Of a DNA stretch of 64,000 bases, positions 22,689-40,895 are shown piece by piece. Location: contig CAIYWC010000137.1 in assembly GCA_903929795.1 (NCBI GenBank), forward strand, positions 34,566-98,565. The letters are read 5' to 3'. Each line of letters begins with the position of its first letter. Within the stretch, counting starts at the first letter, position 1. The DNA comes from an uncultured Myxococcales bacterium. GTDB lineage: Bacteria; Myxococcota_A; UBA9042. Under the pieces are notes generated by a model, which was given only the letters and a program-made list of their open reading frames with translations, searched no databases and was not told where the DNA came from. A program made the position numbers and the translations under genes.

Positions 22689-23060
22689 ATGTCGTTTGCG
22701 ACCCAATTCGAGTTCACGCTTCCGCGCGGCTTCGTCGACAAGGACGGCGTGGTGCACAAGAAAGGCATCATGCGGCTGGCGACCGCCAAGGACGAGATTC
22801 TGCCGCTGCAGGACTACCGCGTGCAGAATAACCGCGCGTATTTGGTCATCATTTTGCTGTCGCGGGTGATCGAGCAGCTGGGCTCGCTCAAGTCGATCAA
22901 CCCGTCGGTCATCGAGTCGCTCTTCTCGGCGGACCTGGCGTATTTGCAGGACTTCTACCGGCGCATCAACGAGGAAGGCTCGTCGCTGATCAAGGCGAAG
23001 TGCCCGGAATGTGGTCACAATTTTGAGATCGACACCGGAGGTGACCTGGGGGAATCGTAA
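22689..23060 (+). CDS. CIS/phage-tail gpE-like (tail assembly chaperone-like) protein
   Basis: First gene of the tail-like cluster; FEFTLPRGFVDKDGVVHKKGIMRLATAKDEI...; C-terminal CPECGHNFEIDTGGDLGES. Confidence 0.65.
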   Translation: MSFATQFEFTLPRGFVDKDGVVHKKGIMRLATAKDEILPLQDYRVQNNRAYLVIILLSRVIEQLGSLKSINPSVIESLFSADLAYLQDFYRRINEEGSSLIKAKCPECGHNFEIDTGGDLGES

Positions 23061-23230: not shown

Positions 23231-24985
23231 ATGGTCATGCCGCGTCCGCCAGGCGTCCGGATCGAACGGGTCATCGACCAGCCGCGCGGCCTTGGGCTCG
23301 TCGAGACCGGCGTCCCGTGTTTTCTTGGCCTGTGCGAGCGCGGTCCGGTCAGCGAGCCGGTCCGGATCGCCGGCGTCGCTGAATTTCATGAACTTTTTGG
23401 CACACTTGACGTCGGAAGCTACCTCGCTGCGGCCATCGACGGCTTCTTTCTCAACGGCGGCCGCCACTGCTACGTCGTGCGCATCGCCCACCTGTTCGAG
23501 CGCGCACGCGGCGAGATCGCGACCAAAGCCAGCGCGCGCCTGCGCGACGCCGAAAAGCAGAATACACTTTTGATTTCAGCCGCTTCGGAGGGTATGTGGG
23601 CCAATAGCGTCCGCGTCTCGGTCCGCCACACCGCGAGCCCGATCCAGACGTTCATCAGCGTCGACGCCCACGTCGGCGAGACCGCGGTCACGGTCAAGAG
23701 CACCCACGGCATCGCGCGCGGCACGCTCGTGCGCATCCACGACGACGAAGCGGCGGCGTTCCGCGTCATCAGCAGCGTCGACGGCCGCGTGCTGTCGTGG
23801 GCCGAGCGCGAACCTTTGCAACGGGAATTCCGCTCCGCCGCGCCGACGCTCATCGAACCGGTCGGCTTTGACCTGATCGTGGAGACGCACCGCACGCGCG
23901 AGGTGTTTCGCGGCGTGAACCTGTCGCGCCAGTCGCCGCAGTTCGTGGAGCGGGTCGTGAACGGCGCGTCGCGGCTGATCACGGTGGCAAGTCTGGAGCC
24001 GTCCACGGCGCTGCCTGATTGTTTTCCTGCAGAAATCAGTGACTTGCGCTTGGAGGGCGGCACCGACGGCCTGTTCACCGTCGTCGCCGAGGACTTCATC
24101 GGCGCGGATCTGGGCCCCGGCAGCCGTTTCGGCCTCGCGGCGATCGCGGATTCAGACGAGATCGACCTGCTCGTGCTGCCTGACTTGCCCTGGTGCCTGA
24201 AGAATTCCACGGGGTTCAAGTCGGCCAAGGACATGGAGATCGTGCAGCAGGCGGTGGTGACGCTCTGCGAGCAGCGGCGCGATCGCGTGGCGCTGTTGGA
24301 TTTTCCGCCGGAGACGACGACGATGGGTGCGCAGCAGTGGCGGCGGCTTTTTGACAGTAGTTTTGCGGCGTTCTACTACCCGTGGGTCGTGCCGTCGACC
24401 GGCGGCGCCGCTATCCCGCCGAGCGGGCACGTCGCGGGCGTCGTGGCGCGCTGCGACCTCGCCCAAGGCGTGTTCCGCGCGCCGGCCAACGAGGTCCTCC
24501 AAGGCGTGGTCGATCTGGCGCTGTTCTTGCAACCGCACGATTTAACTGCGCTCAACAACGACGGCATCAACGGCTTGCAGGTGTTCGCCCAGCGCGGCAT
24601 CCGCATTTGGGGCGCGCGGACGGCCTCGACGGACCCGCAAAATCGCTACCTGAATGTGCGACGGACGGTTTCCACGCTGGCGCGGACCATCAATCTGGGG
24701 CTGCAGTGGGTCGTCTTTGAGCCGAACGCGCCGGAGCTCTGGGGCACGATCGAGCGCGACGTGCGCGTGCTGCTGGAGAGCCTCTGGCGCAAAGGCTGGT
24801 TTCGCGGCGCGACGATGGACGAGGCGTTCTTCGTGCTGTGCGATGACCGCAATAATACAGTGGAAACGCGCGATGCGGGGCAGATTGTTCTGGAGATCGG
24901 CCTGTCGCCGCTGCGGCCAGCGGAGTTCGTGACCGTGCGGCTGACGCAGGAAGTCGACGTGCTGTCGCGCGAAGATGGCGCTTGA
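23231..24985 (+). CDS. Contractile tail sheath protein
   Basis: PRPPGVRIERVIDQPRGLGLVETGVPCFLGLCERGP...; C-terminal GIRIWGARTASTDPQNRYLNVRRTVSTLARTINLGLQWVVFEPN. Confidence 0.9.
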   Translation: MVMPRPPGVRIERVIDQPRGLGLVETGVPCFLGLCERGPVSEPVRIAGVAEFHELFGTLDVGSYLAAAIDGFFLNGGRHCYVVRIAHLFERARGEIATKASARLRDAEKQNTLLISAASEGMWANSVRVSVRHTASPIQTFISVDAHVGETAVTVKSTHGIARGTLVRIHDDEAAAFRVISSVDGRVLSWAEREPLQREFRSAAPTLIEPVGFDLIVETHRTREVFRGVNLSRQSPQFVERVVNGASRLITVASLEPSTALPDCFPAEISDLRLEGGTDGLFTVVAEDFIGADLGPGSRFGLAAIADSDEIDLLVLPDLPWCLKNSTGFKSAKDMEIVQQAVVTLCEQRRDRVALLDFPPETTTMGAQQWRRLFDSSFAAFYYPWVVPSTGGAAIPPSGHVAGVVARCDLAQGVFRAPANEVLQGVVDLALFLQPHDLTALNNDGINGLQVFAQRGIRIWGARTASTDPQNRYLNVRRTVSTLARTINLGLQWVVFEPNAPELWGTIERDVRVLLESLWRKGWFRGATMDEAFFVLCDDRNNTVETRDAGQIVLEIGLSPLRPAEFVTVRLTQEVDVLSREDGA

Positions 24986-25083
24986 GGCGCGAATTGGCAC
25001 GCAAATTGCTTGCAGCTGGTGCGGGTGCGGCGGAGCGGAGTGCGCGAAGCTGTCGCCGGGCTGCAAGAGGGGAGCGACGCGAG

Positions 25084-25863
25084 ATGGCAAACCGCAATCC
25101 GACCGCGCAGCGTCGTGGGGCCGCCGGGCCTCGCTGGCTGCCTGCAGAAACAGCGCGTTCCGGCCGCGTCGCGACCGTGCTCCCCGCAGTCGCACCCGAG
25201 CTCGTCATGGATGCGCCCGACGCGCACCTGGCCGTGGCGGCGATGGCGGTTCCTGGCCTCGCAGCGGCGCAAGATGCCCTGGACGGCGTCGGCGACGCGA
25301 TGGACAAGGCCTTGAATTTTGGCGCAGAAGCCTCGGCGGGCGCGACATTGGCCGCAGCCGCGAAGGCCAAGCTGACGTCCATGGGCGGCGTCCAGGACAA
25401 GCACACCGGCCACGCCACCAAGCGCCAAGGCGACCCCGACATCGCGTACGCTTTCGACATCCAAATCGGCGGCGTCAGCTACGGCATGTTCACCGAAGTT
25501 AGCGGATTGTCTTGGAAAGCGGAAGTCCAACCGATGCCTGAGGGCGGCAACAACGCGTTTGTGCGCGGCCTGATCCGCCCCGGCAAGTTCGAGCTGTTGA
25601 CGCTCAAGCGCGGTTGGTTCGCGGCGACCGGCGAGTTCATTGACCTGCTGCGCGGCGTGCTGGACCCGGTCGGCCCGATCACCCGCAAGAACGTCACGAT
25701 CACCGTACTTAGCCGAACTTACGAAGAAATTGGCCGGTACGATCTGTCGAGCGCCGCAGTTGTCGAGTACGAGGGCCCGGCGCTGAACTCGATGTCCGGG
25801 CAGGTCGGTTTCGAGCAAATTCGCATGGTTTACGACAGCTTCACCTACACGCCCAAAGGCTAG
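25084..25863 (+). CDS. Tail tube protein with a long N-terminal extension
   Basis: DPDIAYAFDIQIGGVSYGMFTEVSGLSWKAEVQPMPEGGNNAFVRGLIRPGKFELLTLKRGW... typical phage-tail region protein; start may be ATG 25084 or TTG 24982. Confidence 0.85.
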   Translation: MANRNPTAQRRGAAGPRWLPAETARSGRVATVLPAVAPELVMDAPDAHLAVAAMAVPGLAAAQDALDGVGDAMDKALNFGAEASAGATLAAAAKAKLTSMGGVQDKHTGHATKRQGDPDIAYAFDIQIGGVSYGMFTEVSGLSWKAEVQPMPEGGNNAFVRGLIRPGKFELLTLKRGWFAATGEFIDLLRGVLDPVGPITRKNVTITVLSRTYEEIGRYDLSSAAVVEYEGPALNSMSGQVGFEQIRMVYDSFTYTPKG

Positions 25864-25868
25864 TCCGC

Positions 25869-28800
25869 GTGCCAAACGACCGCCCACAGGACGCCGTACT
25901 GACGCTGCACAACGACGTGCTCGCGCGCTTGGCGCCGGCGTCAAATGCCTTGAAGTCACAGGCGTTTCTCGGGTCGCTGGCCAAGGCGGAGCGGATGATG
26001 AACCGGCTGGCCGGGCTGAACACGGCGATGGCCGCCTTCTCGGCGCAGGCCTGGGCGATGGCGACCGCGCTGGTGGAGTCGCCGGCCCTGTGCGCGCGCC
26101 TGGGCCTCGACGCCCGCGTGCTGCGCCTGGACGAGCTGGCGGACCTGGTGCAGGTCGTGCTGGAGGAAGAGGCGCTGTTCGCGGCGGACGCGCTGGCCCA
26201 TCCTGGCGCCGAGCCTGGGCGCGCAGACTCGGCGAAATCGTCAAGCAGTCCAAGGCAATCGGCGCACGCGGCGCGACCATCGCTGCACCCCGCTCGCGCC
26301 CGCGCGCGCCCGCCGAAAGCCGAGGCGCTGGTCAAACGCGAAGTGCGGCGGCTGCTGCGGGAAGTCCGGAGCGCACTCGCTGACGCCGCCGCTGCGCCGG
26401 ATCGGCAAGCCCTGGGGTCTGTTGCCCCCGTCGAGCCGGGGTCTGCGGACCTCAGCGCGTCGGCTTCTGGCGCGCGTGCCGAGGGGCAGACGCCGCTCGT
26501 TGCGCAGCTCTCCGCTCCGGCGCTGGAGCGTTGGCGTGCGGCGACCAGGCAGTCCAGCCACCGACTTGACCCGCAGGCGCGCGCGGCGCAGACGACGCGG
26601 GAGGGTCAGTGGACGCACGCCGGGCTGGCGTCCGGGCGCGCGGGCGCAGGGCTGTCGCGGGCGCTGCGCTTGAACGAAGCCGCCGCCGATCTTGCGTTTC
26701 TCGCGACCGGCGCAGACGCCGCCGACGACCCGATGGGAGCCGGAGCCGCGGGCGCCGCGGCGTGGTGGGGCCGGGATCCGGGCGTTGCCAGCAATGCCGC
26801 TGGCCGCCGAACGCCGCGGACAGCGGCGGCAGCGGGCGAACGCGCAACGACTGCTGTCCCGGTGACGGTGCGCGCAAGCGACGCCTTGGGGCCTGCCCCA
26901 CGTCGCGGCCTGACGGCGGCGATCGCCCAGGCTGTTGCCTCGCTCCGTCAGGGCAGGGCGGTTGCGCGGCTGGCCGTTCCTGCGGCCGAGGTCCCAGCTG
27001 CGGGCGTCGTCGTAGCGCCAACGCGCGATTGGGCCGCGGCCCGACTGGCTGTCATGACGCCGCGCTGGCAGCGGACGCTCGGGGCGTGGGCGGACGCCGC
27101 TGCGCCGACGCCAGTCTCGACCGTTCGGTCAGGATTGCTGGCCGTGGGCGACACACGCGGCGCCGATCGCCCGGTGCCCGGCGAGGCCGCCGGCGTTCGC
27201 GTCGGCTATCGCGCTTCCGGATTTCGCGCCGGGCAGCTCTTGGCGCTGGCCCCGCCGTCGCAAGGCCCAGCTGCGCATCCCGCCCCTGCAGCTGCCGATC
27301 GTGCCGCCGGAACGCCGCGCTGGTTGGCGGGCGAAGCCCACGCAGCGGAGGGGACCCAGCGTGCGGCTGCGGCGGGTCCGGTCGGCCTGCGCGCGGGCGC
27401 ACTGGCAGACGCGCTCGCGGCGCGACACGGTGGTGACTTGGCGGGAGGTGTGGCGGAAAGTTTGGCGCGCGTCGCGGGAACGGCGCTGCAGCCCTGGCGA
27501 TCAGCGGCAGGCGGCTATCGCGCTCCACAGGCGGAGCGGGCGGTCCTGGCGCTGGGCGCGGCGGCGATGGAAGTCGGCGCGGACGCGGTGGTTGCGTCTC
27601 CTGAACGGCGCAGCGCGCACGCGTCTGCTGCCCGCGCGCCCTGGGCGAAAGCAGCGGCCGCCGCGGTCTCGGCGGTGGTTGCGCAGGCTTGGCAGCGAAC
27701 GCGGCGCGCACCGGTGGCCAAGCCGGGCCATGGCGTGCTGGAACTCGCGCGCGGCGAGTCGGCCGGTCAGCCAACGGCGCCGGGTGCGCGCGATGTGCCA
27801 CAGATTCTGACGGCGCGACCACAGGGTCGCACGGACGCGATCAGCGCGTGGCTCGCGGCGCCTTTGGCCTCCCCGGCGGTTGCGCGTGGAGTGCGCGCCA
27901 GTTCAGCAGGTGCTTGGCTGCAGCCAGGCGAGGCGCGAGGGTCGTCAGCGACCGCCATGGACGTGCCGCACGCAGCGAGAACGCCGCAAACGCTGGTCCC
28001 GGCGGCTGTTCGCGCGGCGCTCGCCGTCTTTGGGGAACGCGCGGTGGCGCCTGCAGATCGCTCCGTCGGCGCGGCTTACCTTGCGCGATTTCTGGGGCGG
28101 CCGGCGCCCGTCCGACAGCGCCGTGCGTTGGCAGATGAGCCGTGGACGACCGTGGCGTTGGCGGATGATACCGCGACGGAGCCCCAAGCGGCAGCGATGG
28201 ACGCTGGGCGTCATGCGGAAAAATCGCTTGAAAATCATCTAGCTGTGCGCGGAGAGCCGGTCTTGCGCGGCCTGGCGGCGCTTGAGGCGCTCCTGGCTGG
28301 CCCGGGCGCGGCCGACGCTCTGCTTGGCCAGGCGGCGGAACGCGAACTGCGCGTGAATGCCGCGGAACAGACGCTGCTGGCGCCCGCGGCCGATGCAGCC
28401 GAGGCGGCGGCCATGGACCTGTCGGTGCCGACCGCGCGAGTTGCACCACCGACTGTTGCCGCAGCCAAGGTGGCGCCGGCGTGGCCGTCCGCGCAGTTGC
28501 ACCGTTTTGCCCCGGTCGGCTTGGGGCGCGGGCGCGGCTTGCTCTCGCGCACCCGGGCTGCCGAGTCTGCCGCTCCCGCAGCGTTGGGTGCGCGTGCGAC
28601 AAACGCGCGGCCGTCCGGTGCAGCCTCGTGGACCGCGCGCCCGGCCGTCGTTTCGGGTGCGACGCCAGTCGGATATGGAACCTCGGCGCTGGGTGGCGGT
28701 GAGCTGCTCGGCCTGGGGTCAGGCGATGTGCTTGGATTCTTTGGCGAAAACGCGGCAGGTCCGACCGCGTTACGCGGGGCCGATGCACTGGCAAGTTGGG

Positions 28801-29441
28801 TCGCGGGCCGGCGCGGCGGGGCACCGATTCGCGGGCACGCTGCGGCTGTCGCTGGTTTCGGTGCGGCTGCCGGAGGTCAGGAGTTCGTCCGTCCCGAGGC
28901 GGGTGGTCCGGCCGCGTTTGGCGAAGCCGCCGCGCTGAATCCAGGGACCATGCCGACGAATTTCAGCTACCAGCAGGCGCAGGCGAGCGGCTCGACGTAT
29001 GCCCAATCGCCCCAAGCGACGCTGATCGAAGCCGGCGGGGCGGCGGCGCGTCAAGCCCAAGCGGCGGCACGCGCGACGGGCCCGACCGCGTCTGCGCGCG
29101 CGACCCAAGCCGGCGCAATGGCACGTGTATTGTCCGTGACCGACGCCCCGACGGCCAACATGCTGCCGCTCGTGGCACCGGCAGCCCACGCGGTTGTAAC
29201 GGCGGCGGCGGCGAAACCGCAATCCGAGCACCTTGTGACGAGCGGGTATGGGCCGAGCCAGGGCATGTCGGCGCGGTCGCTGCAGGGCGCTGCACACAGT
29301 GATGGCGCACAAGCTTCTGGAAATAACGGCGATTCTCCGGGACACGACGCGCAGGACATCGACGCGTTGGCGGCGAAGATCGCCCGTTCCGTCCTGTTGA
29401 GGATGCAACGCGAACGGGAACGCAGGGGGCAATATGGCTAG
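25869..29441 (+). CDS. 1190-aa low-complexity Ala/Arg/Gly-rich protein of the CIS locus
   Basis: Uninterrupted ORF from GTG 25869, 5 nt after the tube stop; its stop overlaps the next start (ATGGCTAG). Helical N-terminus and charged C-terminus DIDALAAKIARSVLLRMQRERERRGQYG. Confidence 0.7.
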   Translation: MPNDRPQDAVLTLHNDVLARLAPASNALKSQAFLGSLAKAERMMNRLAGLNTAMAAFSAQAWAMATALVESPALCARLGLDARVLRLDELADLVQVVLEEEALFAADALAHPGAEPGRADSAKSSSSPRQSAHAARPSLHPARARARPPKAEALVKREVRRLLREVRSALADAAAAPDRQALGSVAPVEPGSADLSASASGARAEGQTPLVAQLSAPALERWRAATRQSSHRLDPQARAAQTTREGQWTHAGLASGRAGAGLSRALRLNEAAADLAFLATGADAADDPMGAGAAGAAAWWGRDPGVASNAAGRRTPRTAAAAGERATTAVPVTVRASDALGPAPRRGLTAAIAQAVASLRQGRAVARLAVPAAEVPAAGVVVAPTRDWAAARLAVMTPRWQRTLGAWADAAAPTPVSTVRSGLLAVGDTRGADRPVPGEAAGVRVGYRASGFRAGQLLALAPPSQGPAAHPAPAAADRAAGTPRWLAGEAHAAEGTQRAAAAGPVGLRAGALADALAARHGGDLAGGVAESLARVAGTALQPWRSAAGGYRAPQAERAVLALGAAAMEVGADAVVASPERRSAHASAARAPWAKAAAAAVSAVVAQAWQRTRRAPVAKPGHGVLELARGESAGQPTAPGARDVPQILTARPQGRTDAISAWLAAPLASPAVARGVRASSAGAWLQPGEARGSSATAMDVPHAARTPQTLVPAAVRAALAVFGERAVAPADRSVGAAYLARFLGRPAPVRQRRALADEPWTTVALADDTATEPQAAAMDAGRHAEKSLENHLAVRGEPVLRGLAALEALLAGPGAADALLGQAAERELRVNAAEQTLLAPAADAAEAAAMDLSVPTARVAPPTVAAAKVAPAWPSAQLHRFAPVGLGRGRGLLSRTRAAESAAPAALGARATNARPSGAASWTARPAVVSGATPVGYGTSALGGGELLGLGSGDVLGFFGENAAGPTALRGADALASWVAGRRGGAPIRGHAAAVAGFGAAAGGQEFVRPEAGGPAAFGEAAALNPGTMPTNFSYQQAQASGSTYAQSPQATLIEAGGAAARQAQAAARATGPTASARATQAGAMARVLSVTDAPTANMLPLVAPAAHAVVTAAAAKPQSEHLVTSGYGPSQGMSARSLQGAAHSDGAQASGNNGDSPGHDAQDIDALAAKIARSVLLRMQRERERRGQYG

Positions 29442-30105
29442 TGGAAACCCGACGGGACAGCTCGTCCGCGCCATTTTGGACTTCCACGACAAAGTGGAAA
29501 ACGGCGTCGGCTTGGCGTTCCAGTTCAATCCGACCGAGATGACGATGTCCAAGTCGTCCACGCCGGTCGCGCAAAACACCGCGAACGCCAACGCGCCGGA
29601 CCAGCAGCACGTGACGGGCGGGCCGGCGACGCTGAAATTCGGCACCGTGTGGTTTGACACGTACGAGCAGGGCGAGAGCGTTTACCTGAACTATATCAGC
29701 AAGCTGGAGCGCATGGCGCACGTCGATGAGGACCTGCACCGGCCGCCGTACGTCGTGTTCATGTGGGGCGCGAATTTTGGCTCGGTCGCCGGTCAGACAC
29801 CGACGTATGTGTGGCAACTGGCTGATTTTTCAGTGACCTACACGATGTTTTTGCCCGATGCCACGCCGGTGCGCGCGAGCTGCACGATTACGCTGAAGGA
29901 AGTGCCGCAGGAGCAGACGCAGCTGAAGAGCCCGGACACCGCGCACGTGCGGCTGCTGCAGCGCGGGGACACATTGCAGGGGCTGGCGGCGGCGGAATAC
30001 GACGACCCGGCGCAGTGGCGGCGCATCGCGGAGGCAAACGGCATCGACGATCCGCTGAGCTTGACGCCGGGACGCCGCCTGCTGATTCCGCCGATTCTCA
30101 AGTAA
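29434..30105 (+). CDS. CIS baseplate LysM-domain protein (Afp7/gp53-like)
   Basis: AFQFNPTEMTMSKSS...; C-terminal LysM-like LLQRGDTLQGLAAAEYDDPAQWRRIAEANGIDDPLSLTPGRRLLIPP. Confidence 0.82.
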   Translation: MASGNPTGQLVRAILDFHDKVENGVGLAFQFNPTEMTMSKSSTPVAQNTANANAPDQQHVTGGPATLKFGTVWFDTYEQGESVYLNYISKLERMAHVDEDLHRPPYVVFMWGANFGSVAGQTPTYVWQLADFSVTYTMFLPDATPVRASCTITLKEVPQEQTQLKSPDTAHVRLLQRGDTLQGLAAAEYDDPAQWRRIAEANGIDDPLSLTPGRRLLIPPILK

Positions 30106-30144: not shown

Positions 30145-31302
30145 ATGCCGGACCGCCATGCACCGCAGCTGCTGATCAAGATCGACGGCTCGTACTCGTT
30201 GAAGACCGACACCGGCGAGACGTTCGACTTGCGCAATGGCACGGCCATCCTGGGCGCGCACGTGGACTTGCGTTTGGACAATCCGGACATGTTCACGGTC
30301 GAGTTCAACATGAAGAAATTCGCGAAGTTCGCGCTGCTGGATGCGTTCAAGCCCGGCGCGGAGGTGTCGATTTCCATGGGCCTGACGGACGCCGCCGTGG
30401 AGCTGTGCGTGGGCGAGATCGCCTACATCGAGCCGAGCTTTGACGCGGATCTGGGCTTTCGCACGACGATTTCCGGCTACCACAAGCTGCACCGGCTGAC
30501 GCGCGGTCAGCGCTCCAAGACCTGGGGCGACGGCCTGCAGGCGACCCAGACGCCGACAACGGCGGTGAAGCAGGTCATCGACGACTCCAAGTCGCAGCAA
30601 GGCGGCGCGTCGGATTCGCTGTCGACCGGCAAGCTGTCGTCGACGACGGTGAAGCACGATTACATTCCGCAGCTGAACGTCAGTGATTTCGAGTTCTTGC
30701 GGGCGATCGGCGCGAGCCTTGAATTCAAGGCGGATCCGACGGGCAACAAAGACGTGCAGTTCATCAAGCCCGACGCCAAGGCGACGCCGGTGAGCAAGCT
30801 GTCCTGGGAGCGGCCACAACCGGGCGACAAGACGGGTGGCCTGGTGCTGGCGGTGCAGCTGCGGCTGTCGACGGTACAGCAGTATTCCGCAGTAGAAGTG
30901 CGGAGTTGGGACTTCAAGACCAAGAAGAACATCGTCGGCATCGTCAAGTCGTCGACGTACGCGTTCACGGGCGAGGCGGGCGCGGAGATGGCGGGCAAGG
31001 CGCTGTACGGCAGCGCATCGTCGGGGCGAAAGTACGTGGTTGTTGACCAACCGGTCAACTCGAAGGAAGAGGCGCAGGCGCTCGCGCAGGCACTGTTTGA
31101 CCAGTTCAGCATGGACCTGCTGACCGGCGAGCTGACCGTGCAAGGCGACCCCAAGCTGCTGCCGGGCAAGACCGTTGAACTCGTCGGGTTTGGCAAGGCG
31201 TACACGGGCGTTTACCTCATCACCGCCGCGACGCACACTTACCGGCCGTCGGAAGGCTACCGCACGACCATCAGCGTCTCGCGCAACGTCAAGGGCAACT
31301 GA
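30145..31302 (+). CDS. Tail hub protein, gpD/gp27/VgrG N-terminal-like
   Basis: 385 aa; FTVEFNMKKFAKFALLDAFKPGAEVSISMG..., FDADLGFRTTISGYHKLHRLTRGQRSKTW; ends ISVSRNVKGN with no obvious OB/beta-helix spike. Confidence 0.78.
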   Translation: MPDRHAPQLLIKIDGSYSLKTDTGETFDLRNGTAILGAHVDLRLDNPDMFTVEFNMKKFAKFALLDAFKPGAEVSISMGLTDAAVELCVGEIAYIEPSFDADLGFRTTISGYHKLHRLTRGQRSKTWGDGLQATQTPTTAVKQVIDDSKSQQGGASDSLSTGKLSSTTVKHDYIPQLNVSDFEFLRAIGASLEFKADPTGNKDVQFIKPDAKATPVSKLSWERPQPGDKTGGLVLAVQLRLSTVQQYSAVEVRSWDFKTKKNIVGIVKSSTYAFTGEAGAEMAGKALYGSASSGRKYVVVDQPVNSKEEAQALAQALFDQFSMDLLTGELTVQGDPKLLPGKTVELVGFGKAYTGVYLITAATHTYRPSEGYRTTISVSRNVKGN

Positions 31303-31688: not shown

Positions 31689-32090
31689 ATGGCGCGCAGC
31701 TTCCTCGGCAAAGGCATCGCTTTTCCCTTGCGTCTCAATGCGTTCGGCGGCATGGCCATGGCTGACGGCTCCGACAACATCGAGCAGGGCATCCGCTCGA
31801 TCCTCGGCACGGCCATCGGCGAACGCGTCATGCGCCCGCTCTTTGGCTGCCGGATTCACGACTACGTCTTCCACCCGAACTCGCCTACCACCGCGGGATT
31901 TGTGGCGTTTTACGTCCGGGAAGCGCTGGACAAGTGGGAGCCGCGCATCCGCGACGTGGAGGTGCAAGCGGCGCCGGATGGCACGCACGCGTCGCAGCTG
32001 AACGTGACGATTCGCTACAAAATCATCGCCACAAACGAGGATCGCAACCTCGTCTATCCGTTTTACCTGCGGCGTGAGCAGGATCTGTAA
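31689..32090 (+). CDS. gp25-like (GPW/gp25) baseplate wedge protein
   Basis: NIEQGIRSILGTAIGERVMRPLFGCRIHDYVFHPN; size and position typical. Confidence 0.88.
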   Translation: MARSFLGKGIAFPLRLNAFGGMAMADGSDNIEQGIRSILGTAIGERVMRPLFGCRIHDYVFHPNSPTTAGFVAFYVREALDKWEPRIRDVEVQAAPDGTHASQLNVTIRYKIIATNEDRNLVYPFYLRREQDL

Positions 32091-32105: not shown

Positions 32106-35100
32106 ATGATCCCGAGTCCCAACCTAGACGACCGGACATTTGACGACATCGTCCAGGAAGCGATCCGCCTGATTCCGCAGTATTGCCCGGAGTGGACCAA
32201 CCACAATCCGTCGGATCCGGGGATCGCGCTGATCGAACTGTTCGCCTGGATGACCGAGATGACGCTGTATCGGCTGAACCGCGTGCCGGAGAAGAATTAC
32301 CTGGCGTTCCTTGAGCTGATGGGCGTGACGCTGGCGCCGCCGCAGCCGGCGCGGACGGTGCTGCAGTTTGCGATTCATCCCAAGGCGGATCGCGTGGTTG
32401 TGCCCGCGGGCACGCGCGTGGCGACCAAGCCGGGCCAGGACGGCAGCTCCGTGACGTTCGAGACGGACCACGAGATCACGGTCACGAACAACCAGCTGGT
32501 GAAGTGCCTGAGCCAGCACCATGACACGTTTTCCGACAACACGGCGCTGTTGGGCCGCAAGCGCGAAGGCGTCCCGATTTGGGCCGGTGTGCGCGCGCTG
32601 GAGCGGTTCCTGTACGTGTCGGACGCGCGGCTGGCGGCGTTCAACGAGTCCTCGATCCTGACGCTGCGGACGACGGCGCCGGCGGACGCGCAGACGCCGC
32701 TGTGCCGGATGCTGGAGTGGGAGTATTTTGACGGAGAACGGTGGCGTGAGCTGCAGCAGCCGTCGATCGACACGGACGCCGATCAGATCGCGCTGATCGG
32801 CCCGCTGGTGCCGCCGGGCGTGACCACGGTCGCCGAGCACGAGGGGCTCTGGCTGCGCGGCAAGCTGGCGGAGGTGCCGGCCAGCGCGGCGCAGACCGCC
32901 TGCGACGTGGTGCGGATGCGGCTGGAGCTGACCGGCGAGGGCGAGCAGGCGGAGCTGGCCTACTGCGTGCTGGACAGCGGGACGCAGTTTCGTCTGGACC
33001 TGGAACGCCACGTGCAGCCGTTTGGCAAGGAGCCCGCGCAGGATTTCGCGCTGTACCTGCTGTGCGAGCGCGTGCTGGGCCACGTGGATGCGGAGGTGCG
33101 GATCGACATCGAGATCGCCGACCCGTCCGTGGTGGAAGCGCCGCAGGCGAGCAAGGAATTGGTTATCGCGTGGGAATACTGGAGCGGTAAGCGCTGGAAA
33201 TTGCTAGGCAAATCCGGAATTGGCGAGTTTGACGAAGAGGACGCCGGCCTGGATTTTCGCGACGAGACGCGCTGCCTGACGAACTCGGGGCCGATTGCGT
33301 TCCGGCGGCCCAAGGACCTGCGATCGCTGGATTTTGGCGGCAAGGAAGGGCCGTGGATCCGCGCGCGCATTGAGCGCGGCGACTATGGCGCGCGCGGCAC
33401 GTACGAGCTGGAAAACGACCGATGGATGTGGAAAAACCCGCGGCCGCTGCGTCCGCCGACGTTGAAGAGCGTGGCGCTGCGGTTCGCGGAGCAGGAGCAC
33501 GCTTTTGACAAGGTGGTTGCGTACAACGATTTTGTCTACACGGACTTGACCGCGCAGGCGTCCGAACCGTTGAAGCCGTTCGTCGCGTTCACGCCGGTGA
33601 GCGAGGAGAGCCCGACCTTGTACCTCGGCTTTCGCGACCCGTTTTCCAATGAACGGCACCTGCTGTGGATGGATCTGGCCGACGGCGAAGGCAACGTCCG
33701 CAACTTGCGCGCGGGCGCGGGGAGCACGGCGCGGCACTTGGCGCAGTCGAACGCGGAGCAGCTGATCGCCTGGGAGTTCTGGAATGGCCGGGAATGGGCG
33801 GCGCTGAACGCGCGGGACCAGACGTGGGGCTTTGCGCAATCGGGGTTTCTGGAATTCGTCGGGCCCAAGGACCACCGCGCGAACAAGCGCTATGGCGAGA
33901 ACCTGTACTGGCTGCGGGCGCGGCTGGAGTTTGGCGGCTACGACGAGCTGCCCCTGTTGCGCGACGTGGTGCTGAACGCAGCGACGGCGTCGAACCTGAC
34001 GACGTATGGCGACACCGCGCTGGGCTCGTCCAACGGTACGCCGAACCAGGGCTTTCGGTTCGTGCGCGGCCCGGTGCTGCCCGGCGAGGAAATCTGGGTG
34101 CGCGAGCGCGAGCGGCCAACGGGCGTGGATTTGGACGCGCTGAAGACGGCGTTTGGCGAAAGCGCGGTGCAGGACGTCGGGCAGCCCGACGGCGGTGGAC
34201 CCGGCGAAGGCGTGCTGGTGCGCTGGCAGCAGGTCGACAGCCTGTACGAGTCGGCGGGCAACGCGCGGCACTACGTCAAGGACATCGTGAACAACGAGAT
34301 CCGTTTTGGCGACGGAATTCATGGACTTGTGCCGCCAAAAGGCGACCGCAACATCCTGTGCAAGCGCTACCAGGTCGGCGGCGGCGAGGAAGGCAACGTG
34401 CCGGCGGAGAGCTTGACCGTGCTGCTGCAGGCGGTGCCGTACGTGGAAAAAGTGCGCAATCTGCACGCTGGCGCGGGCGGTTGCAACCTGGAGACCGTGG
34501 AGCAGGCCAAGCGGCGCGGGCCCCACAGCTTGAAAGCGCGGGGCCGGGCGGTGACGGCGGAGGATTTTGAGTGGCTGGCGCTGGAGGCGTCGAACTCGGT
34601 CGCGCGCGTGTGTGCGCTGCCGACGCCCGAGCGCGAGGGCGAAGTGACGTTGGTAGTTGTGCCGAAAGTCGCTGAAAATCATCCGGATTTTCTGGAGAAG
34701 CCGATCCCGTCGACCGAGCTGCTGCGGCGCGTGCGCCACCATCTGGCCGATCGCAAGCTGCTGTCGACCGTGCTGAACGTGCGGCGGCCGGCGTTTCGCG
34801 AGCTGTCGGTGCAGGTGGACATCATCGTGCTGCAATCCGCCGGATCGGAGCGGGTCAAGCGCGAAATCCAGCGGCGGGTGCGCTGGTTTTTGCATCCACT
34901 CAAGGGCGGCCGCGACGGCAAAGGTTGGCCATTTGGCCGGCCGGTGTACCGCGTGGACCTGTACCACGTGATTGAGGACGTCCCGGGCGTCGATTTCGTG
35001 GATCGCGTGCGGCTTTTGGACGAATCGTCCAAGCTGGAAGTGGAGCAGTTCAAGGTCGCGCCGGGCGAGCTTGTGCATTGCGTGCGGGTGGACGTGGTCG

Positions 35101-35126
35101 AGAAGGCGCACGAGCGAATCGTCTAA
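32106..35126 (+). CDS. Large baseplate assembly protein (gpJ/Afp11-like)
   Basis: MIPSPNLDDRTFDDIVQEAIRLIPQYCPEWTNHNPSDPGIALIELFAWMTEMTLYRLNRVPEKNYLAFLELMGV, typical start of this family. Confidence 0.88.
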   Translation: MIPSPNLDDRTFDDIVQEAIRLIPQYCPEWTNHNPSDPGIALIELFAWMTEMTLYRLNRVPEKNYLAFLELMGVTLAPPQPARTVLQFAIHPKADRVVVPAGTRVATKPGQDGSSVTFETDHEITVTNNQLVKCLSQHHDTFSDNTALLGRKREGVPIWAGVRALERFLYVSDARLAAFNESSILTLRTTAPADAQTPLCRMLEWEYFDGERWRELQQPSIDTDADQIALIGPLVPPGVTTVAEHEGLWLRGKLAEVPASAAQTACDVVRMRLELTGEGEQAELAYCVLDSGTQFRLDLERHVQPFGKEPAQDFALYLLCERVLGHVDAEVRIDIEIADPSVVEAPQASKELVIAWEYWSGKRWKLLGKSGIGEFDEEDAGLDFRDETRCLTNSGPIAFRRPKDLRSLDFGGKEGPWIRARIERGDYGARGTYELENDRWMWKNPRPLRPPTLKSVALRFAEQEHAFDKVVAYNDFVYTDLTAQASEPLKPFVAFTPVSEESPTLYLGFRDPFSNERHLLWMDLADGEGNVRNLRAGAGSTARHLAQSNAEQLIAWEFWNGREWAALNARDQTWGFAQSGFLEFVGPKDHRANKRYGENLYWLRARLEFGGYDELPLLRDVVLNAATASNLTTYGDTALGSSNGTPNQGFRFVRGPVLPGEEIWVRERERPTGVDLDALKTAFGESAVQDVGQPDGGGPGEGVLVRWQQVDSLYESAGNARHYVKDIVNNEIRFGDGIHGLVPPKGDRNILCKRYQVGGGEEGNVPAESLTVLLQAVPYVEKVRNLHAGAGGCNLETVEQAKRRGPHSLKARGRAVTAEDFEWLALEASNSVARVCALPTPEREGEVTLVVVPKVAENHPDFLEKPIPSTELLRRVRHHLADRKLLSTVLNVRRPAFRELSVQVDIIVLQSAGSERVKREIQRRVRWFLHPLKGGRDGKGWPFGRPVYRVDLYHVIEDVPGVDFVDRVRLLDESSKLEVEQFKVAPGELVHCVRVDVVEKAHERIV

Positions 35127-35141: not shown

Positions 35142-36023
35142 ATGGTCGATTCTGGCAACATGCGCAGCGCGCGGCAGGCGGAACGGCGGGGCCGCAAGGT
35201 CATCGTGCCGGAACTGACCGGCATGCGGCTGCGTGACGCGCAAATCGTGATTGCCCAAGCCGGTTTTGCCAACGCCGACGGCCAGCCGAACGTGCAGGTT
35301 CGCTACGTCGAGGCGTACGCCGAGGATTTTCAGGTCGTCGCGCAGTCGCCGATCCGCGGCCAATTGGTCGACGGCGCGGCGCCGATCGCGCTGCAGGTTG
35401 CGCGCAAAAGCTGGAGCCGGTTCCTGCCGCAGTTGTATTCGGTGGCCAACGAGGAAAACGCGCTTCTGCAGCAATTCCTATGGATGTTCCAACAGATCCA
35501 TGACAAGACCTCGGAGACGATCGACCGCGTGCCGGCCCTGCTGCGGCCGCTGGAGACCGACGCGCAGTACCTCCCGTGGCTGGGCTCCTGGCTGGCGCTG
35601 CATCTGGAAACCGACTGGACCGAGGCGCAAAAGCGCCAGTGGCTGCGGGTGGCGCCGGCGCTTTACAGCCAGCGCGGCACCAAGCACGCCCTGGCGACGC
35701 TGCTGCGGATGTACCTGGGCTTTGACGCCGAGATTCGCGAAAACGTCTGGCCTTTCGAGCCGTTCCGCGTGGGCGTGGCGTCGGAGATCGGCGTGTCGTC
35801 GACGATCCTGCCGCCGCTGAACCTGGCGCACTGCTTTGTCGTGCACCTGCCGGTGCCGGACAGCCACTTTTCCAACGAGCAAATCGTGCGGATTCACCGC
35901 GTGATTCTGGCCGAAAAGCCAGCGCATACGCTATATTACTTGACTTTTGCCCATGCCGACACGGTGGAGGACGGTTCGCCGTTTCTGACCATCGGCGATG
36001 ACGCCCTGAGCGCCGACAGTTAA
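35142..36023 (+). CDS. gpI/Afp12-like tail protein with an N-terminal PASTA domain
   Basis: PASTA-like KVIVPELTGMRLRDAQIVIAQAGFANADGQPNVQVRYVEAYAEDFQVVAQSPIRGQLVDGAAPIALQVA, then gpI-like FLPQLYSVANEENALLQQFLWMFQQIHDKTSETIDRVPALLRPLETDAQYLPWLGSWLAL. Confidence 0.8.
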   Translation: MVDSGNMRSARQAERRGRKVIVPELTGMRLRDAQIVIAQAGFANADGQPNVQVRYVEAYAEDFQVVAQSPIRGQLVDGAAPIALQVARKSWSRFLPQLYSVANEENALLQQFLWMFQQIHDKTSETIDRVPALLRPLETDAQYLPWLGSWLALHLETDWTEAQKRQWLRVAPALYSQRGTKHALATLLRMYLGFDAEIRENVWPFEPFRVGVASEIGVSSTILPPLNLAHCFVVHLPVPDSHFSNEQIVRIHRVILAEKPAHTLYYLTFAHADTVEDGSPFLTIGDDALSADS

Positions 36024-36047: not shown

Positions 36048-37589
36048 ATGGCAGAGATCACCGACAAGAACTTCAAGAGACTGAACTTTTTCCGCGGCTT
36101 TCGCACGTCGGAGACGGACTGGAACCAGGGCGAGCGCTACCACGTGGAAAAGCGCAAGCTGCACAACCGGATGCTCCACGGCCCGGGCGTCGTGCCGCAC
36201 GCGCTGGGCGGCTTCAAGGTGTCCGGGCGCGGGCGCGGCGAGCTGGCTGTGGAAATCCAGTCCGGCTACGCCATAGACGGCCAAGGCAACGACATCTTTT
36301 TGTGGGAACCGGAGATCAAGCAACTGAACCCGGTGGATTTCAAGTTGCCGACGACGGTGTATCTGGTGGCGCGGTACGTCGAGGAGCTGACCGATTTCAT
36401 TAGCTATAAAGAGAACTTGGACTTCAAGGGCCACCGGCGCGTCAGCGAGACGGCGAAAGTGGAATGGACTGTCGCGGAGCCGAATGCCGCCACCGAGATC
36501 GAGCTGTGTCGCATCGCGCTGAGCAAGGACGTGCGGCGGATTACCATGGCAAAATCCCCGCTTCAGCCCGGCGCGGACGAGATCGACACGCGGTTTGCGC
36601 CGACGGCGGGCATCGCGGGCAGCTTCCTGAGCCCGCAGCAGCTGTGGGCGATGACGGAGACGATCGCCAAGTCCAAGCAGATTTACGCGTATCTTTTTCA
36701 TCAGTTGCAAATCTGGCCCGCGGCGGATGTGCTGCACAGCTTCATCACGTTGGAAATGTTGCTGCACACGCAGCTGGTGGACCTGCGCAACGTCTTTGAT
36801 TTGCAAGCGATTGTTCTGGCACACCAGACGGTGCTGGTGACGAGCATCGAGACAAACCAGCCGGCGATCTCGAGTCAACGCGATTTTGCCAACTACAAAA
36901 AACACGTGGAAATCGCCGTGAAGCGCTATGACGAGCGCGTGTTCACGTCGGAATTCCTCACGGAATTGTTGAGTTACCAAAACGAGTGCCTGAAATTCAT
37001 GAACGCGCTGTTTGCCAAGAACCTGGACAGCTCGCCCAAGGTCCTGGAGCGCTCGACGGACACGAACGCGGTGATTGAGAGCATCAAGGTGCGGTCGGCG
37101 GCGTTCACGGACCAGCTGAGCATCGAGGGGCTGGACTTGGTGCTCATCGACACGCTGGACCCGCTGGACGCCGAGAGCGAGCGCAGCCATGCGTGGAAAG
37201 TCACCGGCGAGCGCGACAAATACCGCACGCGGCAGAAGCTGAAATACCCGGATGGCGCGGTGGTGGAAGACGCGGGCGTGGCGTTTGAGGGCGGGCAGCT
37301 GGAATTTGAGATGCGTAACATCGAGCCGGGCAAGGACGTGTACCTGATTTGGCGGACTGATTACGTGCACGGCGACTGGGAAGCGGAGGTCGAAGGCAAC
37401 GATCGGCGGCTGAAGAACGCGGTGTGCGCGGGCAGCGATCGCAAATTCCGCTGGCGTAACTGGGTGTACGTGGTCCCGGCGGAGCACGTGCGCGAAGTGG
37501 CCATGCGTTTCAAGTGGAAGCCGGTCACGGCCGACCGCGACCTGAACGTGTTCAAGATGTGGGCGTACCAGCCGGCAAAACGCGGGTAA
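36048..37589 (+). CDS. Hypothetical CIS-associated protein, 513 aa, C-terminal beta-rich region
   Basis: MAEITDKNFKRLNFFRGFRTSETDWNQGERYHVEKRKLHNRMLHGPGVV...; co-directional with and close behind the gpI-like gene. Confidence 0.6.
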   Translation: MAEITDKNFKRLNFFRGFRTSETDWNQGERYHVEKRKLHNRMLHGPGVVPHALGGFKVSGRGRGELAVEIQSGYAIDGQGNDIFLWEPEIKQLNPVDFKLPTTVYLVARYVEELTDFISYKENLDFKGHRRVSETAKVEWTVAEPNAATEIELCRIALSKDVRRITMAKSPLQPGADEIDTRFAPTAGIAGSFLSPQQLWAMTETIAKSKQIYAYLFHQLQIWPAADVLHSFITLEMLLHTQLVDLRNVFDLQAIVLAHQTVLVTSIETNQPAISSQRDFANYKKHVEIAVKRYDERVFTSEFLTELLSYQNECLKFMNALFAKNLDSSPKVLERSTDTNAVIESIKVRSAAFTDQLSIEGLDLVLIDTLDPLDAESERSHAWKVTGERDKYRTRQKLKYPDGAVVEDAGVAFEGGQLEFEMRNIEPGKDVYLIWRTDYVHGDWEAEVEGNDRRLKNAVCAGSDRKFRWRNWVYVVPAEHVREVAMRFKWKPVTADRDLNVFKMWAYQPAKRG

Positions 37590-38708: not shown

Positions 38709-39341
38709 GTGATCGCCAACTTGATTGTCGACTTCTTTCGCAACCTTGGCCAACAGCGCATCGACGGCGTTGTGAACACGGCCAATGCCAAGAAGATGGG
38801 CGCGATCGCCAAGGCGAAGACTGAAGCTGCCAAGAAGTTTAACGCTGCCGTGGATGCGCCCGTCAAGGTCGCCAAGGGCGTCGTGAAGACGGACGGCATG
38901 AAGAAAGTGGACCCGAAAAAGGAGGGCGACGTGGGTTGGTTCAGCCGCAAGAAGCCCGAGCCGGCGCAGGAATCGCAGGGGTACGCCGAGCAGGATCGCA
39001 CGGTGGCGATCGACGTCAGCCAGTTCAACCGCGGCACGTTTCAGCCGTGTGTCGGCTGGGTCGTCGTGCGCACCGGCGAGCTCACGGGGCGCGATTTCCG
39101 TCTGGTCGATGGCAAGAATACGATTGGCACCGCTGCGGACTGCGACGTTGTGCTGACCGACCCGTATCTCTCGTCCAAGCAATGCGTGATTCGCTATGAA
39201 AATAGCACCTTTACGCTCGTTGACTTGGACTCGACCAACGGCACGTACTTGAACGATACACGCGTCTCCAAGGAAGACTTGATCGACAATGACACGATTC
39301 GCGTCGGCCGGACGGAGCTGAAATTCAAGGCGCTCGAGTAG
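38709..39341 (+). CDS. FHA domain protein
   Basis: LVDGKNTIGTAADCDVVLTDPYLSSKQCVIRYENSTFTLVDLDSTNGTYLNDTRV. Confidence 0.85.
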   Translation: MIANLIVDFFRNLGQQRIDGVVNTANAKKMGAIAKAKTEAAKKFNAAVDAPVKVAKGVVKTDGMKKVDPKKEGDVGWFSRKKPEPAQESQGYAEQDRTVAIDVSQFNRGTFQPCVGWVVVRTGELTGRDFRLVDGKNTIGTAADCDVVLTDPYLSSKQCVIRYENSTFTLVDLDSTNGTYLNDTRVSKEDLIDNDTIRVGRTELKFKALE

Positions 39342-39365
39342 GCCAAATTGTCCCGGAGGTAGTCG

Positions 39366-40895
39366 ATGTCCCTGAATTGCCACGGCTTGTTCCGCATGGT
39401 CGCGGCGTGCGCGCTGCTCGTGCTGGTGGCGCCCGCGTTCGCCGCGGAGAGTCGTGTCACGCTCGACCGGGTGGAGGTGGAGGCGAAGGAGAATTTCCTG
39501 CGGCTGCACGTGGATGTGCTGGATGCCAAGGGCGCGCCGGTGTCGAGTCTCGCGCCGGGCGACGTGGAGGTTCTCGCCAACGGCAAGCCGATCAAGCTGA
39601 CCGACATCGAGATCCAGACGGCTGAACAGGCGCAAGAGCCCGTCGCGATTGTGATTTTGCTCAATGCCTCGCGCGGCTACCAAATCCAGGGCGCGGGCGA
39701 AGAGCACGGCACGTTCCAGCAGGCCAAGGAAGGCGCGGCGCAGTTCATCCAGCGGCTCAAGGGCAACGACATGGTCGCGGTGGTCGTGTACCGCGAATCG
39801 GTGCCGCACGAGGTGGTGTATTCGTTCGCGTCGGATTTCAGCCAGGCCAAAGAGGCGGTGCTGAACTACAACGTGCCGGCGGCGGACCTGAATCCCGAGA
39901 ATAATCAGGGACAAGCGGCCCGGGAGCGCAGCCTGCTGCCGGAGTTTCAGAGCGCGGTCAAGAAGGTGCTCGACTTCTTCAACGACAACCTCGCATCGAA
40001 CACGAAGCTGGCGGGCGCGCACCGCCGGTTTCTCGTCATCCTGACCGACGCCAAGGATCGCGAGACGCGCAAGGACAAGCTGCAGCCCAAACTCAAGAAG
40101 ATGGTTGAGGAAAAGATTGAAGAGAACGGGATCCGCATCTTCGCCATCGGCTATTCGCCGGACGATGAGCAGTACCTGTCGCTGCTCCAGGACATCGCCA
40201 ACGTCTCCGGCGGCGCGTACACCTATGTGCCGAACAAGGACGGCCTGGGGCAAATTCCGTCGGTTTTTGATGCGATTGCGACGCGAATCAAGAAGCAGTA
40301 CATCATCAAGGCCAAATGGGCAGAGCTGCCGGACTGGGGCGACCCGGTCAAGGGCAAGGACGAGGCGAATTACGCCATCGGCTTGAAGGTCAAGATGAAG
40401 GACGGCGCCGAGGCCGAAGCCGCGTTCAACGACGTGCGACTGCCGCTGCCGAGTCTGAACTGGCTGAAATATCTGAAGATTGCCGGCATCGTGCTCGGCG
40501 GGCTGCTGGGCATTGTTCTGCTTGTGGCGCTCATCGTGTTCCTGGTGCGGCGCAAGAAAGCCGCGCCCGCGCAGGTCGAGACCAGGGCGGCGTATGACGG
40601 TCCGGCGCGCGGCAAGCTCGTCGTGCTCGCGGGGCCGTTGGCCGGCGAGACGTTCCCGCTGATCGACGACGTCACCACGATCGGCTCCATGAAAGGCAAC
40701 ACAATCGTCATCGCGGACGGCTCGATCTCGCGGCGTCACGCGGCCATCAAGATCGACCAAATGCGCTATGAAGTCGCGGACATGAACTCAACCAACGGCG
40801 TGCTCGTCAACGGTCAGCGCATCCACAAGGTGTTCATGAAGGACGGGGACCGCGTGCAGATCGGCACGACGGAATTGCAGTTCAATTTGAAGTAG
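39366..40895 (+). CDS. Signal peptide-VWA-TM-FHA protein
   Basis: N-terminal signal; VWA-like region; TM IAGIVLGGLLGIVLLVALIVFLV; C-terminal FHA SISRRHAAIKIDQMRYEVADMNSTNGVLVNGQRI. Confidence 0.82.
   Translation: MSLNCHGLFRMVAACALLVLVAPAFAAESRVTLDRVEVEAKENFLRLHVDVLDAKGAPVSSLAPGDVEVLANGKPIKLTDIEIQTAEQAQEPVAIVILLNASRGYQIQGAGEEHGTFQQAKEGAAQFIQRLKGNDMVAVVVYRESVPHEVVYSFASDFSQAKEAVLNYNVPAADLNPENNQGQAARERSLLPEFQSAVKKVLDFFNDNLASNTKLAGAHRRFLVILTDAKDRETRKDKLQPKLKKMVEEKIEENGIRIFAIGYSPDDEQYLSLLQDIANVSGGAYTYVPNKDGLGQIPSVFDAIATRIKKQYIIKAKWAELPDWGDPVKGKDEANYAIGLKVKMKDGAEAEAAFNDVRLPLPSLNWLKYLKIAGIVLGGLLGIVLLVALIVFLVRRKKAAPAQVETRAAYDGPARGKLVVLAGPLAGETFPLIDDVTTIGSMKGNTIVIADGSISRRHAAIKIDQMRYEVADMNSTNGVLVNGQRIHKVFMKDGDRVQIGTTELQFNLK

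Follow-up and report, generated by a model that had tools for sequence, protein, structure and literature searches.

The spike plug of AlgoCIS, Alg6, forms a trimer within the spike cavity, where it touches the LysM protein Alg7 and the hub protein Alg8, and is needed for assembly (PMC8894135). Anabaena Cis6 is likewise present in three copies and sends a loop into the lumen (PMC8894136). In AlgoCIS, proteins with an eCIS_core domain are cargo that sits in the tube lumen (PMC8894135). In diffocin the tape measure is trimeric, and its C-terminal helix lies on the spike, at the same place as the plug (PMC10996793), and in a survey, phages and tailocins were found to lack Cis6 but to have a tape measure (PMC12210884). 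A large, about 70% disordered effector related to tape measures, Tme, has been described from Streptomyces davawensis (PMC11126660). In a haloarchaeal CIS both cis6 and cis14 were reported missing, the sheaths varied in length and the lumen showed no additional density; Streptomyces CIS are without a typical Afp14. A plug and/or a tape measure has not been identified in several well-studied CIS, and the questions concerned are what determines their length and how they keep cargo in place until they fire.

The stretch of DNA analysed here (the window, 64,000 nucleotides) belongs to the 6.35-Mb draft MAG of an uncultured Myxococcales bacterium and contains a CIS gene cluster with a 1190-aa, mostly disordered protein, termed X, encoded between the tube and LysM genes. 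The class relatives used for comparison are Myxococcota MAGs.

Gene cluster and coding evidence

All genes of the cluster lie on the forward strand. A tail assembly chaperone-like protein with a C-terminal zinc ribbon (22689-23060, phrog_508) is followed by the contractile sheath (23231-24985, PF04984/PF17482) and by the tube (24982-25863, PF06841 and TIGR02241), in which the gp19 fold starts at about residue 150. After X (25869-29441) come a CIS_tube and LysM protein of the Afp7/Alg7 type (29434-30105, PF19266 and PF01476), a VgrG/gp27-like hub of the Afp8/Alg8 type (30145-31302, PF05954, NF033848 and phrog_52), a gp25-like baseplate protein (31689-32090, PF04965), a 1006-aa baseplate J-like protein of the Afp11 type (32106-35126, PF04865), a Tail_P2_I/TIGR02242 baseplate protein (35142-36023) and a CIS13-like protein (36048-37589; weak match to NF053767, E 4.7e-8, below the cut-off). 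The gene order of contractile phages resembles the series chaperone, sheath, tube, X, LysM, hub, gp25 and J of the window. No CIS protein of the class is better conserved than the chaperone-like one (71-98% identity, above sheath or hub). It matches phrog_508 in the window and in seven of seven further loci tested, and this chaperone is encoded with X-type clusters.

Several features of the cluster and its relatives were recorded alongside. The tube gene has an N-terminal extension and its likely start is the ATG at 25084; the Ala-rich extension of about 110 residues before the gp19 fold (protein 24982-25863) is conserved in family f1 and not in f5. Two FHA-domain proteins, one with VWA, are encoded directly downstream of the CIS genes (38709-40895), and FHA and VWA genes likewise adjoin the sheath in the plasmid CIS of Treponema succinifaciens (L286). 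In other Myxococcota families (L109, L110, L111, L115, L118 and L193) a second sheath and tube lie upstream of the chaperone, so that one cluster holds two sheath-tube pairs. One record titled Klebsiella pneumoniae (L150, CAMDBH010000037.1) has a CIS locus that clearly groups with Myxococcota MAGs and is probably mislabelled.

On re-reading of the open frame, the coordinates, GTG start, 1190-aa length and 8-nt overlap of the 3' end of X with the LysM gene were as given in the preliminary description. Since GC is 66.5% and an 894-aa antisense ORF is present nearby, an open frame alone is weak proof of a gene, and relatives were therefore examined. One large ORF (589-1809 aa) fills the gap between tube and LysM genes in 30 of the 30 class relatives with a readable gap. 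At five loci in a few MAGs (L108, L190, L196, L200 and L204) the gap holds no single ORF, possibly through sequence errors. Codon-position statistics, which had been proposed as a check on translation, gave a typical coding pattern over the first 300 nt of X (GC by codon position 0.75/0.45/0.92), and within the genus substitutions fall mainly on position 3 (0.56, vs 0.29 and 0.26 at the other two). Coding of the region on the antisense strand or in another frame was considered and rejected: stops interrupt the reverse strand in that register, and none of the frames looks better. Within the genus dN/dS of X is about 0.27 vs 0.04-0.12 for neighbour genes, with pS near saturation. X is thus under purifying selection, with a ratio clearly below 1 yet above that of its neighbours, and is a real, translated gene.

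Matches to the window's LysM protein were found in 42 of the 53 genomes searched. The X tail profile gave one strong match per genome, the X gene, with no second strong match, and none in genomes without the LysM gene; X is single copy and co-occurs with the CIS. No family match to X was found in Pfam, PHROGs or NCBIfam. Thirty relatives searched against Pfam and PHROGs gave nothing but an eCIS_core domain in one protein (L123) and chance matches.

Anatomy of X

X is rich in Ala (24-30%), followed by Arg, Gly and Pro, as had been noted from the sequence, and carries a net charge of +29. Tandem repeats inside the gene are minor (2-2.5 copies of 9-12 nt), and no transmembrane stretch was found. 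An AlphaFold2 model, built on a shallow alignment of 21 sequences, has a mean pLDDT of 46 with 823 of 1190 residues below 50 (about 70% disordered), in agreement with the disorder suspected earlier; it contains no strands and no long coiled coil. Helices are predicted within residues 6-110, best at 60-110, where a helical N-terminus of about 110 aa had been expected. A further helix is predicted at 150-175 and short ones along the chain, and the C-terminal helix at 1159-1186 stands isolated (block pLDDT 82-92).

Conservation in the family is best in three parts. The N-terminal helical region (residues 1-110, 25869-26198) contains the family-conserved motifs VLTLHxxVxxRW and ELADLVQxVLEEE, and its residues 86-110 show 52% identity to the window's X across family f1. 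A segment at residues 1060-1130 (29046-29258; MARVLSVT..MLPLVAPAA..AAAKP.SE) has 66% identity and is conserved in family f1 only. The C-terminal helix (residues 1159-1186, 29343-29426; DIDALAAKIARSVLLRMQRERERRG) is common to all X-type proteins and is alike to the DUF5908 plug helix. The last 30 or so residues are the sole part shared by all relatives: in full-length profile comparisons between the X families of the phylum, tail-to-tail was the best alignment for most pairs and the rest of the protein was not alignable. The C-terminus had also been called amphipathic, which holds weakly, its hydrophobic moment being unexceptional and reached by 27% of shuffles. A search of solved structures with the tail returned just de novo helical designs and chance matches.

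The C-terminal helix and the spike plug

The comparison of the C-terminus with DUF5908/Afp6 that the preliminary description had suggested was positive for the C-terminal helix. By hhalign, 49 X tails aligned with seven true DUF5908 proteins at a probability of 91.4% (score 32.9), and the alignment reaches the last residues of both families. Among the controls, 20 termini from ten other CIS proteins scored no higher than 13.8, and column-shuffled tails reached 10.5. A C-terminal helix ending in an ER-type motif, a feature of DUF5908, is present in X (hhalign 91.4%; AlphaFold2 helix 1159-1186), and so is the gene position between the tube adaptor and the LysM gene. Seven independent weak hits in six-frame searches of genomes with the Pfam DUF5908 model (G049, G040, G045, G037, G288, G281 and G072) land in the last 56 or so codons of X genes. 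Two systems coexist in genome G023: an 1809-aa X belongs to the first, and the second has a 53-aa DUF5908 plug at the same place.

The Pfam model itself, PF19265, gave no match to X, to 21 isolated tails or, at E up to 10, anywhere in the window's own genome; the best score among X relatives (E 0.067) is below the curated cut-off. The N-terminal strand of DUF5908 (MPxEIxELxI) was not found in X, where the alignment covers the helix only and the AlphaFold2 model is strandless. The earlier view of X as a massively expanded DUF5908 protein is therefore correct in the tail alone, where about 30 residues out of 1190 are alike, and X is not filed as a DUF5908 member, because the strand part is absent and the Pfam cut-off was failed.

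These same facts (some 30 aligned residues, no strand, no single X above the Pfam cut-off) could be read as convergence of short charged helices, with X unrelated to the plug and different in role. We consider this improbable, since the gene position is the same, the alignment runs to the last residues of both families with controls far lower, and weak DUF5908 hits recur on X ends; moreover, an independent set of tails, taken from other phyla, could likewise be aligned with DUF5908 (37%, score 21.0; shuffles reach at most 10.9). From these profile comparisons, the X tail probably works like the DUF5908 spike plug.

Distribution and length

Tails of the X type occur at the same position in cyanobacteria, Chloroflexota, Firmicutes, Proteobacteria, Nitrospirales and archaea, on proteins of 172-2319 aa, and the tails from other phyla align by profile with those of Myxococcota (97.2%, E 3.5e-11). 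Such genes are present in an ANME-1 archaeon, in Anaerolineae, Nitrospirales and Lachnospiraceae and, with a divergent tail, in Zixiibacteriota. Plasmid-borne ones were found in Nostoc (524 aa), Paraburkholderia, Paenibacillus, Rhodococcus, Streptomyces clavuligerus (a 1381-aa open frame 5' of the second tube gene) and Haloferax larsenii, where the annotated protein has 177 aa and the open frame 2319 aa. Some of the long plasmid frames are open frames only, with flat codon statistics. Lengths run from 172-306 aa in Lachnospiraceae to 2129 aa in Myxococcota, with 1084-1231 aa in the genus of the window.

Some clusters differ at this position. In Roseomonas and Cereibacter it is occupied by short, strand-plus-helix-like proteins of 59-71 aa, and nothing lies between the tube and LysM genes in Myxococcota family f16 or in T. 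succinifaciens (L286). Since this gap is empty in some CIS, the X part is not obligatory in every CIS. The tube gene is followed directly by LysM, with no X or plug gene between, at L121, L122, L125, L138 and L286. A search for phages with X by way of the LysM protein gave no match in phage records and three weak ones in viral contigs, covering the LysM part only.

Cargo and the eCIS_core proteins

A 606-aa relative of X (L123, genome G274) has an eCIS_core (DUF4157) domain (E 1.6e-16) ahead of the same tail; this domain is absent from the window's X. In the genome of the window a 235-aa eCIS_core protein, encoded far from the CIS cluster (L230:6610-7314, on G000:C63), has an X-like end helix, DPHALEDKVMAILERLQRTEGERSG, and small eCIS_core proteins of this type were found there and in 19 further family-f1 genomes examined. 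Their tail aligned with X tails at 85.6% (E 5.6e-6, score 30.5); in a genus-only version, the controls reached at most 13.4 for shuffled tails and 14.8 for other CIS termini. The same tail gave no match to DUF5908 itself. Because both kinds of eCIS_core protein share the tail, and those of AlgoCIS are lumen cargo, the X tail may, judging from sequence, be a general docking tag.

The domain-bearing relative and the small eCIS_core proteins also speak for X as mainly a cargo or effector, docked at the hub by the plug helix acting as its loading tag. The load delivered would be the hypervariable middle, and particle length would be set otherwise or not at all. X evolves faster than the machine genes, as this reading would have it, and precedents exist in the eCIS_core proteins of the AlgoCIS lumen (PMC8894135) and in the large, disordered Tme (PMC11126660). 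We nevertheless regard it as rather unlikely for the window's X, which has no recognisable enzymatic or toxin domain and no adjoining immunity gene, and which is present once per genome in obligatory linkage with the machine genes, whereas typical effectors are scattered.

Two observations on giant eCIS_core frames belong here. One in the window's genome (L229, G000:C115:8000-24414, minus strand) is open over at least 3869 aa, has an eCIS_core domain and runs off the contig end, and in related genomes such ORFs reach 4647 aa. L229 is an unlikely candidate for the missing tape measure, having no X tail and being unlinked to the CIS cluster.

Tape measure and scaffold

The preliminary description had remarked on the lack of a conventional tape measure, and indeed none other than X was found in the cluster, nor did the tape measure family PF10145 match anywhere in the draft genome (G000). 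It had proposed X as tape measure, lumen cargo or scaffold; all three remain candidates, which sequence does not separate.

X has the tape-measure traits of being the largest gene of the cluster and of lying between tube and hub with a tail assembly chaperone; the long helical coiled coil is missing from the AlphaFold2 model (21-sequence alignment), and no sequence match was found between X and tape measure families. The phage-like position and the chaperone favour a tape measure, while the eCIS_core domain in one relative and the length range of 172-2319 aa favour cargo or filler. The same range argues against length setting by X in some lineages: with 0.15 nm for each residue, the 172-306 aa of the Lachnospiraceae form would span only 26-46 nm, too short for measuring a tail.

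The chaperone-like gene of the cluster, the disordered, Ala/Pro/Gly-rich chain and the gene position between tube and initiator would also fit a scaffold or chaperone that assists tube growth during assembly and stays outside the finished particle. We hold this to be very unlikely, given that the X tail resembles a structural plug which is retained in mature particles.

Proposed model

Our preferred reading, which we hold with slightly better than even confidence, is that X is a hub-anchored lumen protein that combines the plug with the tape-measure position. One chain would do the jobs that elsewhere are split between a short plug (Afp6/Alg6/Cis6, DUF5908) and a tape measure (Afp14/Cis14). 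X would dock by its C-terminal helix, probably as a trimer, in the cavity of the hub and of the LysM tube-initiator protein encoded by the neighbouring gene. The remaining 1150 or so residues, positive and mostly disordered with short helices, would run from the hub up the negative tube lumen. During tube growth the chain would hold the tape-measure position, probably helped by the tail-assembly chaperone encoded upstream, and on firing X would leave the tube.

Docking, trimerisation, lumen location, length control and ejection are all inferred, with unequal confidence. Plug-type docking of the tail is likely from the profile comparisons: because the end helix resembles the base plug, X is probably plugged into the base and threads up the tube, there to serve as length measure or as load. 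A location in the lumen is reasonably probable, and the charge of +29 vs the negative lumens of CIS (PMC8894135, PMC8894136) was counted in favour of the fit. True length control by X is put forward tentatively and seems somewhat doubtful. Against the model, the likeness to the plug spans about 30 residues only, and short helices can converge. Also counted against it were the missing long coiled coil and transmembrane stretch, the wide range of lengths, the CIS with an empty tube-LysM gap, and the varied sheath lengths without additional lumen density of a haloarchaeal CIS.

X-type genes are candidates for the plug or tape measure reported missing in haloarchaeal and Streptomyces CIS. A wider proposal, which we regard as speculative and on balance unlikely, is that X-type proteins make up a so far unrecognised family of CIS parts, widespread among bacteria and archaea and defined by a C-terminal hub-docking helix on a chain of free length. 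The family would account for the parts missing in those systems. The short spike plug would then be what remains of an ancestral tape measure, and the helix, which an eCIS_core protein in the window's genome carries too, would serve as a portable tag for cargo loading. The conserved and easily spotted helix points to a candidate gene in each cluster without an identified plug or tape measure and predicts a binding place for it, and it would explain cargo loading too, if cargo proteins use the same tail.

Comparison with known systems

Tme of S. davawensis is, like X, very large, mostly disordered and encoded just upstream of baseplate genes. It differs in having DUF4157, predicted transmembrane helices and a C-terminal nuclease, none of which is present in X, and, by locus tags, it precedes the tube initiator gene whereas X follows its tube gene. 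X is linked to eCIS_core cargo by the one relative that holds the domain and by the small protein of the same genome with an X-like end; the window's X differs from such cargo in having no eCIS_core domain.

The tape measures of contractile phages and tailocins (diffocin CD1366) and Afp14/Cis14 are, like X, the largest protein of their cluster and encoded between tube and hub genes; as with tape measures, a tail assembly chaperone is present in the X cluster and the C-terminal helix of X would be expected at the hub. Unlike them, X has no sequence match to the family, is mostly disordered, and has neither a long coiled coil nor a transmembrane part.

The Afp6/Pvc6/Alg6/Cis6 plug (DUF5908, PF19265) differs from X in size, true members in the phylum being 53-62 aa long against 1190 aa, and in its N-terminal strand, absent from X, which scores nothing against PF19265. 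X resembles this plug in its position between the tube adaptor and LysM genes and in its C-terminal helix, which aligns with that of the plug by profile.
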